Below are positions 19,980 to 26,195 of a DNA stretch of 32,693 nt, piece by piece (position 1 is the first letter of the stretch; every line of letters starts with the position of its first letter). A program made the translations under genes and the position numbers. Source of the stretch: a virus; IMG/VR virus record IMGVR_UViG_3300042373_000562, positions 1 through 32,693 of that record. One strand, given 5' to 3'. Under the pieces are notes generated by a model, which was not told the origin of the DNA, made no database searches, and saw only the letters and a program-made list of their open reading frames with translations.

Positions 19980-19993
19980 TGACGATTTGCGAC

Positions 19994-20019
19994 AAACGCC
20001 GAACTTGTTTCGGCGTTTT
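19994..20019 (+). terminator. Hairpin terminator at the end of the late region
   Basis: AAACGCCGAA (19994-20003) pairs perfectly with TTCGGCGTTT (20009-20018) around a 5-nt loop, with a T-run in the 3' arm. It ends the late transcript coming from the membrane protein gene. Confidence 0.8.
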
Positions 20020-20081
20020 GCATTTTATCAAGTTGGCTTTCAGTCAATTAAAAAAATGTTTTGACATTTATTTCAGTTTTG

Positions 20082-20112
20082 TTTGTTTGTGTTGATAATG
20101 TTTCTACATTTG
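20082..20112 (+). promoter_or_regulatory. Strong Bacteroidota-type early promoter 1
   Basis: TTTG (20082-20085), exactly 19 nt, then TACATTTG (20105-20112) match the Bacteroidota -33/-7 consensus. The spacing and -7 sequence are identical to the promoter at 22149. It drives the 67-aa gene. Confidence 0.85.
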
Positions 20113-20134
20113 TCAAACGCAAAACGAACACGTC

Positions 20135-20338
20135 ATGAACTACAAATCACATTTATTCGCAAGTATCGGAAACAACAAACTTCATCCTTCAAGGATGCAA
20201 TGCGGCCGTCATATTTACAGAAACGGAAAAGGAACACACGCCGTGAAAACTGCACAATTCAAAAAAGACTTTGAAGAAGATGAATCAAGTGTTTGCGAAA
20301 AGTGTTTGAAGTGGGCAAAAGAAAACGGAAAAATCTAA
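20135..20338 (+). CDS. Small Cys/His protein, first early gene
   Basis: The 67-aa basic protein has CGRH in the middle and CEKC near the end, a possible zinc-binding set. It is the only gene between a consensus promoter and a strong terminator, so it should be heavily expressed early. The function is unknown; a small regulator or host-takeover protein is plausible. Confidence 0.65.
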   Translation: MNYKSHLFASIGNNKLHPSRMQCGRHIYRNGKGTHAVKTAQFKKDFEEDESSVCEKCLKWAKENGKI

Positions 20339-20345
20339 AAATATC

Positions 20346-20373
20346 AAGGACCGGTTTCGGCCGGTCCTTTTTT
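20346..20373 (+). terminator. Strong terminator behind the first early gene
   Basis: AAGGACCGG (20346-20354), loop TTTCGG, and CCGGTCCTT (20361-20369) form a perfect 9-bp stem followed by T6. The GGACCGG stem, loop and T-run recur at 22505-22530. Confidence 0.9.
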
Positions 20374-20391
20374 ATTCAATCGCAAATCAAA
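20348..20391 (+). repeat. Terminator-leader repeat, copy 1
   Basis: Terminator stem, T-run and the leader motif CGCAAATCAAA (20381-20391) form a block repeated almost exactly at 22505-22545, with only a 3-nt length difference after the T-run. Both copies stand between a small Cys-rich gene and an early operon. Confidence 0.85.
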
Positions 20392-20396
20392 AAAAA

Positions 20397-21047
20397 ATGA
20401 ATTCAATTGTTTACAATGAAGATTGTCTTTCAGGAATGAAAAGATTTCCAGACAAATATTTCGATTTGGCCGTTGTTGATCCGCCTTATGGGATAAATAT
20501 TGCTGCAAGTGGAAGCATAGGCAGAGATAAGTTTACTCCTAAAAATTGGGATGAAAAAATACCTGACAATGAATACTTTATTGAGTTGCAGCGGGTATCT
20601 AAAAATCAAATTGTTTGGGGTGGAAATTACTTTCCTTATTTATGGAATAACGGATGTAAGGGCTTTATCTGTTGGAATAAATTAAACCACCACGATAACA
20701 GAGCAGATGTTGAGTTGGCTTGGACTTCATTTAATAAGTTGGCTAAATATTTCGAATATATGTGGGATGGAAATAGATATGGAACTAAAGGAAATATACA
20801 AGGAGTAGGAAAGCCAACTATAAGAATTCATCCAACACAAAAACCGGTTGCCCTTTACGACTGGATATTTCACAACTACGCGAAACCAGAAGACAAGATT
20901 CTTGATACTCATTTAGGAAGTGGATCTTCAAGAATTGCCGCCTTCAAAAACGGACTTGATTTCACCGGTTTTGAACTTGACAAAGAATATTTCGAAGCCG
21001 CCGAAAAGCGTTTCAAAGTATTCAAATCACAATTGACACTTTTTTAA
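20397..21047 (+). CDS. Orphan DNA adenine/cytosine-N4 methyltransferase, mosaic gene
   Basis: The 216-aa protein has the amino-methyltransferase motifs: catalytic DPPY (28-31) near the N-terminus, HPTQKP (145-150), and the SAM-binding segment DTHLGSGSSRIAA (170-182) followed by FELD. The order (motif IV before motif I) is that of beta-type enzymes, with the target recognition domain in between. No cognate nuclease is nearby, so it probably protects phage DNA from host restriction. Codon use is split: the ends look like the rest of the genome, whereas about bases 20488-20850 use ATA, GAG, AGG, GCT and TTA codons that are rare elsewhere, pointing to a swapped recognition domain. Confidence 0.9.
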   Translation: MNSIVYNEDCLSGMKRFPDKYFDLAVVDPPYGINIAASGSIGRDKFTPKNWDEKIPDNEYFIELQRVSKNQIVWGGNYFPYLWNNGCKGFICWNKLNHHDNRADVELAWTSFNKLAKYFEYMWDGNRYGTKGNIQGVGKPTIRIHPTQKPVALYDWIFHNYAKPEDKILDTHLGSGSSRIAAFKNGLDFTGFELDKEYFEAAEKRFKVFKSQLTLF

Positions 21048-21051
21048 TCAC

Positions 21052-21405
21052 ATGACAACAAACTTCAAAAGTTTCGGAACCTTCAAAAGAAAGTTCATTC
21101 TTGAACAAAAAGAAATTCATGACGAATTTCAGGATCTTGTTTCAAACTTTTTCGCCGTTCTTTTTTCTTACGATTGGGATTCATTGGACGAACTTTTTCA
21201 ATACAAAGTTTTCGAAGAATACAATCGAATTTGGATTGTTTTTTCGGAAAGGTGGAACCAGAATGAACGACACGTCACAAAGGTCAATTCTTACGCTTTT
21301 CATCAATTCGCAATAAGTCAAAACGAAAAGGACCTTGAAAACGGAATCAACTTGATCAAATTAAATGAAGAAGTCAAATCAAGCGATTCAGGCGCGTCTT
21401 TTTGA
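21052..21405 (+). CDS. Hypothetical early protein
   Basis: The 117-aa helical, aromatic and acidic protein lies 4 nt after the methyltransferase. It has an FFAVLFSYDWDSLDELF segment and a Ser/Asp-rich C-terminal end. No family is recognised. It overlaps the next gene by 41 nt. Confidence 0.6.
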   Translation: MTTNFKSFGTFKRKFILEQKEIHDEFQDLVSNFFAVLFSYDWDSLDELFQYKVFEEYNRIWIVFSERWNQNERHVTKVNSYAFHQFAISQNEKDLENGINLIKLNEEVKSSDSGASF

Positions 21406-21583
21406 AGAATCGGACAAACATGTCGTCGAATTCCAGATCGTCGGCAAATCAACGCAAATCACGCGAATAATGACAAAAGAAGAATGTCAAGACTTTATTG
21501 ACTTTCTTGACGTGTTCGCGATTCAATACAACTTCGCAAATATCAAGAATCATGAAAGTAATAATCAAACACGAATTCAATAA
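21365..21583 (+). CDS. Hypothetical small early protein
   Basis: The 72-aa protein overlaps its neighbours by 41 and 32 nt. It has a strand-like segment (HVVEFQIVGKSTQITRIM) and a helix (KEECQDFIDFLDVFAIQY). No family is recognised. The overlaps suggest coupled translation within the methyltransferase operon. Confidence 0.55.
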   Translation: MKKSNQAIQARLFEESDKHVVEFQIVGKSTQITRIMTKEECQDFIDFLDVFAIQYNFANIKNHESNNQTRIQ

Positions 21584-22130
21584 ATTCAAACAACTGAACT
21601 TCAGAACCTTCGAAGTCAAACGGACCGTCGGCGGAAAGATCGCCGAAGTTTACATTCCTGAACAAGATCGAACACTTGACTTTTCGTTCAAAGAAGTTTT
21701 GATTCTGGACGTTGAAGGCGTTCTTCAAAGTTTCCAGAATGAAGGAATTCCGACAAACGATTTCGACTTTGTCATGAACTACCTTGAACACAATTATCGC
21801 GATCCTGAAGAAATCATTGTGACTTTCGGTTGTTTGATTGATTCTTGTGTGAAGAAAATCAAGGCCGAAAAAAAGAAATTGAATTCGTGTTTGTTGTCCG
21901 ATTCAAGTCTTGAAGAAAAGATTCCTTGTTCAAACTTTTCAGTTTTGAATGAAATCAAACACGAATTCAAACACGGTAAATATTACAGAAACAAAGTTCA
22001 TTTCGGCGACGTGGTCTTTGCAAATGGAAATGAAATTCAAGTCGAATGTAATGACGCGAATCCTTACATGAAAGGTCAAATTCTGACTTTTCACGCGATT
22101 CATCAAAACGGCGAAATCAAACCAAAATAA
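21552..22130 (+). CDS. Hypothetical early protein
   Basis: The 192-aa protein has an N-terminal beta-rich part, a Cys-containing helical middle (FGCLIDSCVKKIKAEKK, later CLL and IPC), and a C-terminal beta-rich domain with NPYMKGQILTFHAI. The start at 21552 overlaps the upstream gene by 32 nt; an in-frame ATG at 21498 would overlap it by 86 nt and is less likely. No family is recognised. Confidence 0.6.
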   Translation: MKVIIKHEFNKFKQLNFRTFEVKRTVGGKIAEVYIPEQDRTLDFSFKEVLILDVEGVLQSFQNEGIPTNDFDFVMNYLEHNYRDPEEIIVTFGCLIDSCVKKIKAEKKKLNSCLLSDSSLEEKIPCSNFSVLNEIKHEFKHGKYYRNKVHFGDVVFANGNEIQVECNDANPYMKGQILTFHAIHQNGEIKPK

Positions 22131-22148
22131 AAAAATATTTCTTTTTTA

Positions 22149-22179
22149 TTTGTTTATTTGATTTTTCTTTTTACATTTG
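22149..22179 (+). promoter_or_regulatory. Strong Bacteroidota-type early promoter 2
   Basis: TTTG (22149-22152), 19 nt, TACATTTG (22172-22179) copy the layout of the promoter at 20082. The surrounding DNA is very AT-rich. Transcripts should begin near the leader motif AGCAAATCAAA (22183-22193). Confidence 0.85.
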
Positions 22180-22203
22180 TCAAGCAAATCAAAACACAAA
22201 ATC

Positions 22204-22491
22204 ATGAAAAATCAAAAACCTTTAACAATTGAACTTTATGTTTCTCCACAAAAAGAAGCAAACGAAGAACGCTTCGGTTTAGACGCAAATCAATGTATTT
22301 GTTGTGGTAAACTAATGAAAGAAGGCGAAAAACTTTATGTTCATATGAACACAATCGGTCAAGTCTTGAATCCACAAATTGTCACTGATGAAAATTGTGA
22401 AGAATTGACCGGTTTTGAATCACAAGGCGCTTTTCCAGTCGGTAATTCTTGCGCGAAAAAAATGAAAGGATTCACTTTTCTTTTGGACTGA
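22204..22491 (+). CDS. Small Cys-rich protein (zinc-ribbon-like), second early module
   Basis: The 95-aa protein has CICCGK near residues 31-36 and further Cys at the C-terminal side (ENCEE, NSCAKK), consistent with zinc binding. It stands alone between a consensus promoter and a terminator, like the 67-aa gene, but does not look homologous to it. The ATG at 22204 is used because an earlier in-frame start would lie within the promoter. Confidence 0.7.
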   Translation: MKNQKPLTIELYVSPQKEANEERFGLDANQCICCGKLMKEGEKLYVHMNTIGQVLNPQIVTDENCEELTGFESQGAFPVGNSCAKKMKGFTFLLD

Positions 22492-22504
22492 TATAATTTT
22501 CAAC

Positions 22505-22530
22505 GGACCGGTTTCGGCCGGTCCTTTTTT
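22505..22530 (+). terminator. Strong terminator behind the second small Cys-rich gene
   Basis: GGACCGG (22505-22511), loop TTTCGG, CCGGTCC (22518-22524) and T6 repeat the terminator at 20346-20373. Confidence 0.9.
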
Positions 22531-22545
22531 CAATCGCAAATCAAA
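22505..22545 (+). repeat. Terminator-leader repeat, copy 2
   Basis: This is the second copy of the block at 20348-20391. It ends with CGCAAATCAAA (22535-22545), 12 nt upstream of the next ATG. Confidence 0.85.
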
Positions 22546-22557
22546 TCAATTCAAATC

Positions 22558-23918: not shown

Positions 23919-23926
23919 TATCTTTG
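23919..23926 (+). promoter_or_regulatory. Promoter-like TATCTTTG before the recombination gene
   Basis: TATCTTTG matches TAnnTTTG, and the predicted transcript would start near the leader motif CGCAAATCAAAA (from 23933) just before the ATG at 23950. No clear -33 TTTG is seen, so it may be weaker or need an activator. Confidence 0.65.
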
Positions 23927-23949
23927 TGAAAACGCAAATCAAAACAATC

Positions 23950-24990
23950 ATGAACAAAATCGAAGCAATCAACGAATCGAAAAATTTCGACGTTGAAAAA
24001 ATCAAAAAGTATCTTCAGGCGATGAACCTTTCGTCAAACTTGACGACTGGCGAAGTTGAACAATTCATTGAAATCGCGAAATCATTCAACTTGAATCCGT
24101 TCAAGCGCGAAATCTACGCGAACAAATACGGCGACAAGTTCAGCGTGATCGTCGGTTTTGAAACTTATATCAAACGCGCCGAACGATCTGGACTTCTTTC
24201 AGGTTGGAACGTACGAACTGAAGGCGTCATTGACTTTCAAAACATTATGAATTCAAGTCTTCGCGCGATTATTACAATTCACCGAAAGGATTTTGAATTT
24301 CCTTTCGTTCACGAAGTTTATTATTCGGAATATGTAGGCCGCAAACGCGACGGATCAATCACGGAATTCTGGAAAAACAAACCGGTCACAATGACGAAAA
24401 AGGTCGCAATGGCACAAGGATTCAGACTTTGTTTTTCGGACGAACTCGGCGGTTTACCTTACACAACTGAAGAACTTTCGACAATTGACGAAGACGCGGT
24501 TGTTGTTGAAACCAACAAACCAGAACGCAAGAAACAATCCGTTCAGGTTATCAAGCCGGAAACGATTCAAAAAGACACGGTCCGAATTCGTGAACTTTTG
24601 GACAAGATCAAAGAATCAAAATCAAAAGACGATCTTGTCGCGATCTGGAAATCGAATCAAGACCTTCACGGCGAAATTGTGTTCAAGAACGCAATGACAT
24701 TCCGAAAGAATCAACTGAACGAAAACGTTTCCGTTGATTTGCCTGAAACCGAAAAAGAAAACAAAAACAAAACGGATCAAGAACTTTTTGAAATCAAAAA
24801 ATCAATGACACTTCGAAACAATCAAATTTCGATCATTGACAAAATTAAGTCCGCCGAAACGCCTGAAGAACTTTTCGAATTGACTGAAAACGAAACCGAC
24901 AAGGAAATCTTGAAGGCCGCCGACGAAAGAATGAAAGAACTTTTTGAAATCGAACCGTTTGACACTGTAAAAAATGAAATCGAACACTAA
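23950..24990 (+). CDS. bet: Single-strand annealing recombinase, Bet/RecT family
   Basis: The 346-aa protein matches the phage Bet (Red-beta) type annealing protein, which anneals complementary single strands in recombination and genome repair. Recognisable core blocks lie in residues 15-185: LNPFKREIYANKYG, FSVIVGFETYIKRAERSG, the basic IHRKD, EYVGR and KKVAMAQGFRLCFSDELGG. The remaining 160 residues form a Glu/Lys-rich helical tail. A GTG at 23926 would extend the frame but lies inside the promoter, so ATG 23950 is chosen. No paired exonuclease was recognised. The gene overlaps the next by 17 nt. Confidence 0.9.
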   Translation: MNKIEAINESKNFDVEKIKKYLQAMNLSSNLTTGEVEQFIEIAKSFNLNPFKREIYANKYGDKFSVIVGFETYIKRAERSGLLSGWNVRTEGVIDFQNIMNSSLRAIITIHRKDFEFPFVHEVYYSEYVGRKRDGSITEFWKNKPVTMTKKVAMAQGFRLCFSDELGGLPYTTEELSTIDEDAVVVETNKPERKKQSVQVIKPETIQKDTVRIRELLDKIKESKSKDDLVAIWKSNQDLHGEIVFKNAMTFRKNQLNENVSVDLPETEKENKNKTDQELFEIKKSMTLRNNQISIIDKIKSAETPEELFELTENETDKEILKAADERMKELFEIEPFDTVKNEIEH

Positions 24991-25390: not shown

Positions 25391-26195
25391 TTCGTCCGAA
25401 AGACTTCCATATTTCAACTTTTATCCGGCGGACTGGTTGACCGACCTTTCACTTCGATTGTGTTCGGCCGAAACGCGCGGCGTCTGGATTGATCTTCTTT
25501 GTCACATGTCGCTTTCACCAGAACGCGGATATTTGATTCTTAACGGTCACGTTTTGGACGCGAAAGGAATCCAAAAGTTGTCCAATATTAGTCCAAAAAG
25601 ATTCAAAAAAGTGTTTGAAGAATTGACTTCTTTTGGAATACTTCGGACCGACGAAAACGGTCGATTTTTTTCGAAAAGAATGATCGGCGACGAACGTCTT
25701 CGTCAAATACGGCGCGAAGTTGGCAAGAAAGGCGGAAATCCAAACTTGAAGAAATCCGGCGAAGATTTGGTAAACGATACTGTTGAAAATTTGCTTAACC
25801 AAAACACAAACCAAAATTCAACCCTATCAAAGTCAAAGTCAAAAGTCAAAGTCATATCAAACAATAAAGAAGAACTTTATTGTTCTGAAAAAACAATTCA
25901 AGTCTTCAATCCGGTTGTTGATTACATTCAAAAAAATTGTCCGAACGTGTCGAAACTCAAAAATCAATTGACAATTGATCAAGCGGAAAATTTGATTCAA
26001 GAATTTTCAATCGAATTGATTCGTGACGTCATTGATCAAATGGAAAATTTCAAACCTTTAGTTTCGAAATATTCTTCGGTTCATCTAACTTTGAAAAATT
26101 GGTTAAAACTAAAAAACGCAAATCATGACAAATCAAATTCAAATTCAAAACTCAACGGAAAACCTTCTTTCACAAATGCAATTCGTGACTTTTAA
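25374..26195 (+). CDS. Replication initiator / replisome organiser (DUF1376-like winged helix)
   Basis: The 273-aa protein starts with LPYFNFYPADWLTD, followed by LRLCSAETRGVWIDLLCHM and a winged-helix region (about residues 15-110), the pattern of phage replisome organiser proteins that bind the origin and recruit the helicase. A low-complexity linker (about 140-165) is encoded by TCAAAG repeats. The C-terminal half is helical with FKPLVSKYSSVHLTLKNWLK, DnaD-like in character. It overlaps the helicase-loader candidate by 71 nt. Confidence 0.8.
   Translation: MKVSNNSSERLPYFNFYPADWLTDLSLRLCSAETRGVWIDLLCHMSLSPERGYLILNGHVLDAKGIQKLSNISPKRFKKVFEELTSFGILRTDENGRFFSKRMIGDERLRQIRREVGKKGGNPNLKKSGEDLVNDTVENLLNQNTNQNSTLSKSKSKVKVISNNKEELYCSEKTIQVFNPVVDYIQKNCPNVSKLKNQLTIDQAENLIQEFSIELIRDVIDQMENFKPLVSKYSSVHLTLKNWLKLKNANHDKSNSNSKLNGKPSFTNAIRDF
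25827..25853 (+). repeat. TCAAAG iteron-like repeats, candidate replication origin
   Basis: TCAAAG occurs at 25827, 25833 and 25846, with a TCAAAAG variant at 25839 and TC following, within the linker of the initiator gene. AT-rich DNA follows (about 25855-25885). Lambda-type phages place the origin inside the initiator gene in this way. Confidence 0.5.

Follow-up and report, generated by a model that had tools for sequence, protein, structure and literature searches.

The gene for a predicted orphan DNA methyltransferase of a tailed phage appears to have kept its long-resident ends through a recent two-junction exchange that replaced the block between motifs IV and X with the corresponding block of a related methyltransferase. 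We put the probability of this reading, including the mechanism and the selection proposed for it, at about 0.88. The gene lies in the window, by which we mean the whole stretch of 32,693 bases that was analysed, a virus record with the tail, lysis, terminase and RecT genes of a tailed phage. The features discussed are collected in Table 1.

Table 1. Coordinates of the methyltransferase gene, its parts and associated features in the window.
Feature	Position	Strand	Basis
Predicted orphan beta-class DNA methyltransferase gene (N6_N4_Mtase), 216 codons	20397..21047	+	Pfam PF01555, PHROG, structure model
Native N-terminal flank ending in motif IV (DPPY, 20478-20489)	20397..20489	+	Codon z +0.76; 81% amino-acid identity to L007 and L003
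Foreign central block, taken to hold motifs V-VIII and the target recognition region	20490..20834	+	Codon z, Markov scan, CpG, GAG+CTC, nearest relatives L003/L004
Right junction at HPTQKP, in the motif X region	20829..20846	+	Sequence; DNA similarity of homologues resumes at a median of -3 nt from the motif
Native C-terminal flank, including motif I (SAM binding; ILDTHLGSGSS)	20847..21047	+	Codon z; residues 144-216 92% identical to L007
Hypervariable accessory slot containing the methyltransferase gene	19993..22552	+	L167 colinear with the window up to 19992 and from 22553 onwards; L156
First copy of a terminator-like direct repeat, immediately upstream of the gene	20348..20373	+	All 26 nt match 22505-22530
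Second copy of the terminator-like direct repeat, closing the accessory segment	22505..22530	+	The DNA match to L156 and L164 picks up again at 22529
RecT/Bet-type single-strand annealing protein, candidate recombinase	23926..24990	+	PF03837 RecT 4e-25; TIGR01913; phrog_10056 6e-41

A solitary beta-class methyltransferase

The predicted product matched PF01555 (6e-16; 59.5 bits against a cut-off of 26.7) and, along its entire length, the PHROG 67/23224 DNA methyltransferase families; no second PF01555 gene was found in the window. An AlphaFold2 model (mean pLDDT 84.5) superimposed on M.BceJIV over 186 residues with a Z of 19.5 and an rmsd of 2.9, and also matched CcrM, MboIIA, M1.HpyAVI and RsrI, with Z between 17 and 19.5 for M.BceJIV, CcrM, MboIIA and RsrI. 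Catalytic motif IV (DPPY, residues 28-31), which was invariant in 61 homologues, is followed by HPTQKP at residues 145-150 and by the SAM-binding motif I (ILDTHLGSGSS) at residues 168-178. This gives the order that defines the beta class, namely IV, then V-VIII and the target recognition domain (TRD), then X and I. The protein is accordingly classed as a beta-class N6/N4 DNA methyltransferase on its sequence and modelled fold, and is predicted to methylate adenine at N6 or cytosine at N4 within a specific sequence. Among the scanned genes adjoining it, none gave a family match to the Res partner that a Type III Mod protein would have. Likewise, no cognate nuclease was recognised by Pfam or PADLOC among the scanned neighbours, which are genes of unknown function in a possibly incomplete record. 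Judged by these neighbours, the enzyme appears to be an orphan.

A compositionally foreign centre

We scored synonymous codon usage by leaving out one gene at a time and conditioning on the amino acid, so that the 40 remaining genes supplied the reference usage. The resulting z was +0.76 for codons 2-31, -11.72 for codons 32-146 and -1.07 for codons 147-216 (0.06 for codons 176-216), and 1,634 forty-codon windows from the other genes had a mean of 0.11, a standard deviation of 1.01 and a minimum of -3.21. The lowest-scoring run of codons was exactly 32-146 (nt 20490-20834), with a score of -31.1, whereas 5,000 synonymous recodings drawn from native usage never went below -9.9. Run over the window without regard to genes, an order-3 Markov scan returned one outstanding anomaly at 20488-20923 (score 218.9; next best 23.9). 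The central block also has a CpG observed/expected ratio of 0.43 versus 1.96 elsewhere and a GAG+CTC density of 17 per kb versus 1.2 per kb elsewhere, and it contains 5 of the 10 GAG words of the window. These effects are large because the signature of the genome is itself strong, with a CpG ratio of 1.96 at 41% GC and a near absence of GAG/CTC. The compositional anomaly of the centre is confirmed and lies far beyond chance. Elsewhere in the window, the runner-up anomaly is a weak one at 25770-25828 (score 24).

The first-pass annotation, which had described native ends around a foreign centre and had proposed a sliding codon or k-mer analysis as a check, is borne out by both scans. Its list of codons scarce in the rest of the genome needs trimming. 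ATA (4% of Ile codons), GAG (0 among more than 700 Glu codons), GCT (7%) and TTA (9%, fairly scarce) belong on it; TAT is in fact the commoner Tyr codon of the genome (58%), and AGG has no in-frame occurrence in the centre, where Arg is encoded mostly by AGA.

The left edge of the centre falls directly after DPPY and the right edge within or just past HPTQKP. From codons alone the junctions range over 20412-20490 on the left and 20825-20957 on the right, where about 130 nt are uncertain, and the first ~80 nt of the C-terminal part are intermediate in composition. In the structure model, residues 58-74, 90-94 and 105-120 of the block supply helical and strand elements to the catalytic fold, and residues 31-50 and 121-140 form low-confidence loops. 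From established knowledge of beta-class enzymes, we take the block to hold motifs V-VIII together with the target recognition region.

Different ancestry of flanks and centre

We aligned 117 homologues, built separate trees for flanks and centre and compared groupings by AU tests. The flanks closest to those of the window's gene were found in L007 (81% amino-acid identity in the N-terminal and 92% in the C-terminal flank), whose two centre halves are 39% and 25% identical. The closest centres were those of L004 (92%) and L003 (83%) over residues 96-143, and the flanks of L004 reach 55%. Sliding identity favours L007 up to about residue 32, L003/L004 from there on, and L007 again from about residue 147. 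The trees agree with this picture: the window's gene groups with L007 in the flank tree (96/75) and with L003 and L004, inside a starred clade, in the centre tree (99/67). For the flanks, the AU test rejected a grouping with L004 (4e-8) and with L003 plus L004 (3e-68), and for the centre it rejected a grouping with L007 (5e-5); these p-values are optimistic, as the groups were picked after the identities were known, but the differences in log-likelihood, 91 and 145, are large. L003, which is 76% identical to the window's gene over the whole length, was not rejected as its sister in the flanks (p = 0.10). By these comparisons, flanks and centre differ in ancestry and meet at conserved motifs, as expected of a TRD exchange.

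Searches for a near-identical donor of the centre gave 3 relatives among viral contigs, 3 distant whole-protein relatives among bacterial and archaeal genome contigs, and 76 relatives, all below 60% amino-acid identity, among phage records. A plasmid search with the centre and a Megablast search of window positions 1-24000 against phage records had no match, and the centre DNA of L004 is about 62-83% identical to that of the window's gene. As no near-identical donor DNA was found, this single exchange cannot be traced to a source.

The first-pass annotation had placed the junctions close to DPPY and HPTQKP, which holds, and had suggested aligning homologues to see whether flanks and centre have different nearest relatives, which they do. 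Uniform composition and one consistent phylogeny among close homologues, which it had named as evidence against an exchange, were not what we found overall, the position of L003 in the flanks being the one unrejected exception. Its proposal that recombination at conserved blocks had replaced the TRD stands as regards exchange at those blocks, which composition, the discordant relatives with the AU tests and the homologue pairs described below all favour. It is too narrow as regards the unit: as modelled, the exchanged stretch spans the full interval from motif IV to motif X, including motifs V-VIII and core strands of the fold.

Recurrence across the family

The centre is variable throughout the methyltransferase family. 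Flanks at least 85% identical around centres less than 40% identical occurred in 82 pairs of homologues, and the reverse pattern in 6; only 7 of the 117 genes had the same nearest relative in flanks and centre, and one flank group of 11 genes carried 10 centre types. At the DNA level, 48 pairs drawn from 33 loci have flanks that are about 90% identical; in these, similarity stopped at a median of +5 nt after DPPY (10-90%: 2 to 8) and restarted at a median of -3 nt before HPTQKP (10-90%: -12 to +3). The 48 pairs are not independent events, and local alignments end where similarity fades, so these values mark block limits and not exact crossovers.

Individual loci show the same arrangement. L013 and L024 are 95% identical over 661 nt upstream and into the gene, then lack a DNA match for ~300 nt, and then resume at 89%; L016 and L017 are colinear over ~10 kb at 72-81% DNA identity with the central block missing from the match. 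The Flavobacterium phages stinky9-1 and filifjonk9-1, complete isolate genomes of different genera from the same host strain, share the gene ends at 94% and 93% DNA identity around a centre that is 40% identical in amino acids. Within the central block lies a short conserved island, VSKNQIVWGGNYF (residues 67-79), which may hold a 45-nt DNA match kept between these two isolates (its position is approximate) and could be a third crossover site.

Alternative explanations

Three other histories have to be weighed. The whole gene might have been imported, its ends looking native merely through conservation or shortness. The gene is indeed accessory, with no tblastn homologue in the related contigs L156 or L167, and has short flanks of 93 and about 200 nt, but the ends fit the genome even under codon scores conditioned on amino acid, and neither the different nearest relatives of flanks and centre nor the AU rejections sit well with a single import; we consider this very improbable. 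Divergence of the centre by point mutation under diversifying selection, in place of exchange, would account for a centre that varies across the family. It leaves unexplained why the codon usage and CpG content of the centre are foreign to this genome, why similar centres are found on different flanks, and why flank DNA about 90% identical adjoins a centre without general DNA similarity, and we regard it as extremely unlikely, the least probable of the three.

An artefact has to be considered as well, since the window is an IMG/VR virus record and the window's gene shares with L007 an identical 20-nt word around DPPY; an assembler might have joined two phage methyltransferases of one sample at such a word. 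Two false junctions would be needed for this, however, and the same junctions recur in many unrelated data sets and in the complete genomes of stinky9-1 and filifjonk9-1, which argues against assembly chimeras as a general cause. We therefore judge a chimera very unlikely, somewhat more so than whole-gene import, and retain the two-junction exchange of the central block.

Genomic setting

The accessory slot differs in content among relatives. L167 has other genes between its colinear parts, and L156, a closer relative than L167, carries a C5-cytosine methyltransferase gene there. The latter gene (L156:7-1215) is near-native in composition except for a dip at ~601-800, and a gene in the same slot of L167 (9566-10417) encodes a product that we likened by eye to a PAPS-reductase/DndC-like enzyme. 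The identical 26-nt repeats on either side of the accessory segment might mediate its gain or loss.

GAG and CTC are near absent in every reading frame and on both strands, in the window as in L152-L165. Outside the methyltransferase gene the window has 38 occurrences versus 614 expected from dinucleotides, and L159 has 5 in 19.4 kb; the window is also poor in TA (observed/expected 0.22). In fourteen relative contigs, found via the terminase, GAG/CTC ran at 0.3-3.3 per kb (0.68 per kb when 84 kb from six of them are taken together). The near absence is common to relatives, and the native signature is therefore long-standing and the centre not yet assimilated to it.

A link between GAG avoidance and the imported block itself was suggested by L006, whose centre belongs to the same clade and which is the second-strongest GAG avoider among the compared loci. 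We do not claim it: L004 and L005 of that clade are GAG-rich and L137 is ordinary, and many relatives of this phage avoid GAG yet show no such gene in the stretches examined. A literature search for trinucleotide avoidance in phages found nothing. In L149, the contig of L006, YGAG/CTCR is absent though RGAG is present, and CCGG occurs 0 times against 41 expected, a pattern that looks like restriction-site avoidance. GATC is missing from L003 1-4253 (0 versus 29 expected); the window has 255.

Proposed mechanism and implications

We propose that the equivalent block of a related methyltransferase, in a genome of different composition, entered the resident gene through homologous pairing around DPPY and HPTQKP, where the DNA is conserved at both motifs. 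The RecT-like annealing protein of the phage, whose match to TIGR01913 (bet_lambda) stands at 77.0 bits against a cut-off of 76.95, might have assisted; Rad52-like phage recombinases tolerate divergence and act on short and diverged sequences (PMC3945230). The imported block would bring a different target recognition region and so alter the methylated sequence. A changed methylation specificity is likely, because the block holds motifs V-VIII and the recognition region. Host restriction would then select for recombinants and keep them, and escape from restriction through the swapped block, as the first-pass annotation had suggested, is plausible.

More tentatively, and with slightly less than even confidence, we suggest that several phage genera share a pool of recognition blocks that move as DPPY-HPTQKP cassettes, driven by annealing recombinases and kept by selection. 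If so, one gene family would be the phage equivalent of HsdS shuffling and offer a combinatorial, population-wide way to keep up with changes in host restriction specificity. The family supplies natural matched pairs with the same ends and different centres, their junctions mapped within a few nucleotides. Such pairs would allow methylation motifs to be assigned directly to recognition blocks, and restriction escape by specificity swap to be tested against acquisition of new genes.

Comparison with known systems

We found no report of recognition-block exchange in stand-alone phage methyltransferases in the open-access papers searched, although this says little about its absence. The lactococcal 936-type phages have orphan adenine methyltransferases that protect against HphI and DpnII; these are similar in being phage-borne and, in some cases, gained by exchange; they differ in being discussed against group alpha motifs, and a swap of a central block was not found in the part of that report used here (PMC4190342). 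In Type I systems, shuffling or domain movement of HsdS TRDs likewise alters methylation specificity through swappable recognition domains between conserved segments (PMC3077401, PMC3983042). HsdS, however, determines specificity as a subunit of its own, which has two TRDs and repeats; the phage enzyme is one chain with one block.

There is also a likeness to the Type III Mod genes of Helicobacter pylori, between which TRDs move, as described in PMC3983042 with reference to earlier work. There, non-orthologous genes exchange the recognition domain by recombining where the DNA for conserved methyltransferase motifs is weakly similar. Our model also aligns with the Mod proteins of EcoP15I and Mbo45V (Z 15.5 and 13.9). 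The phage methyltransferase differs in being short and stand-alone, without a Res partner, and its exchanged block includes motifs V-VIII and not just an inserted TRD. Exchange of recognition domains at conserved motifs is thus already known for Type III Mod enzymes; what appears to be new is a family of orphan phage methyltransferases doing so.
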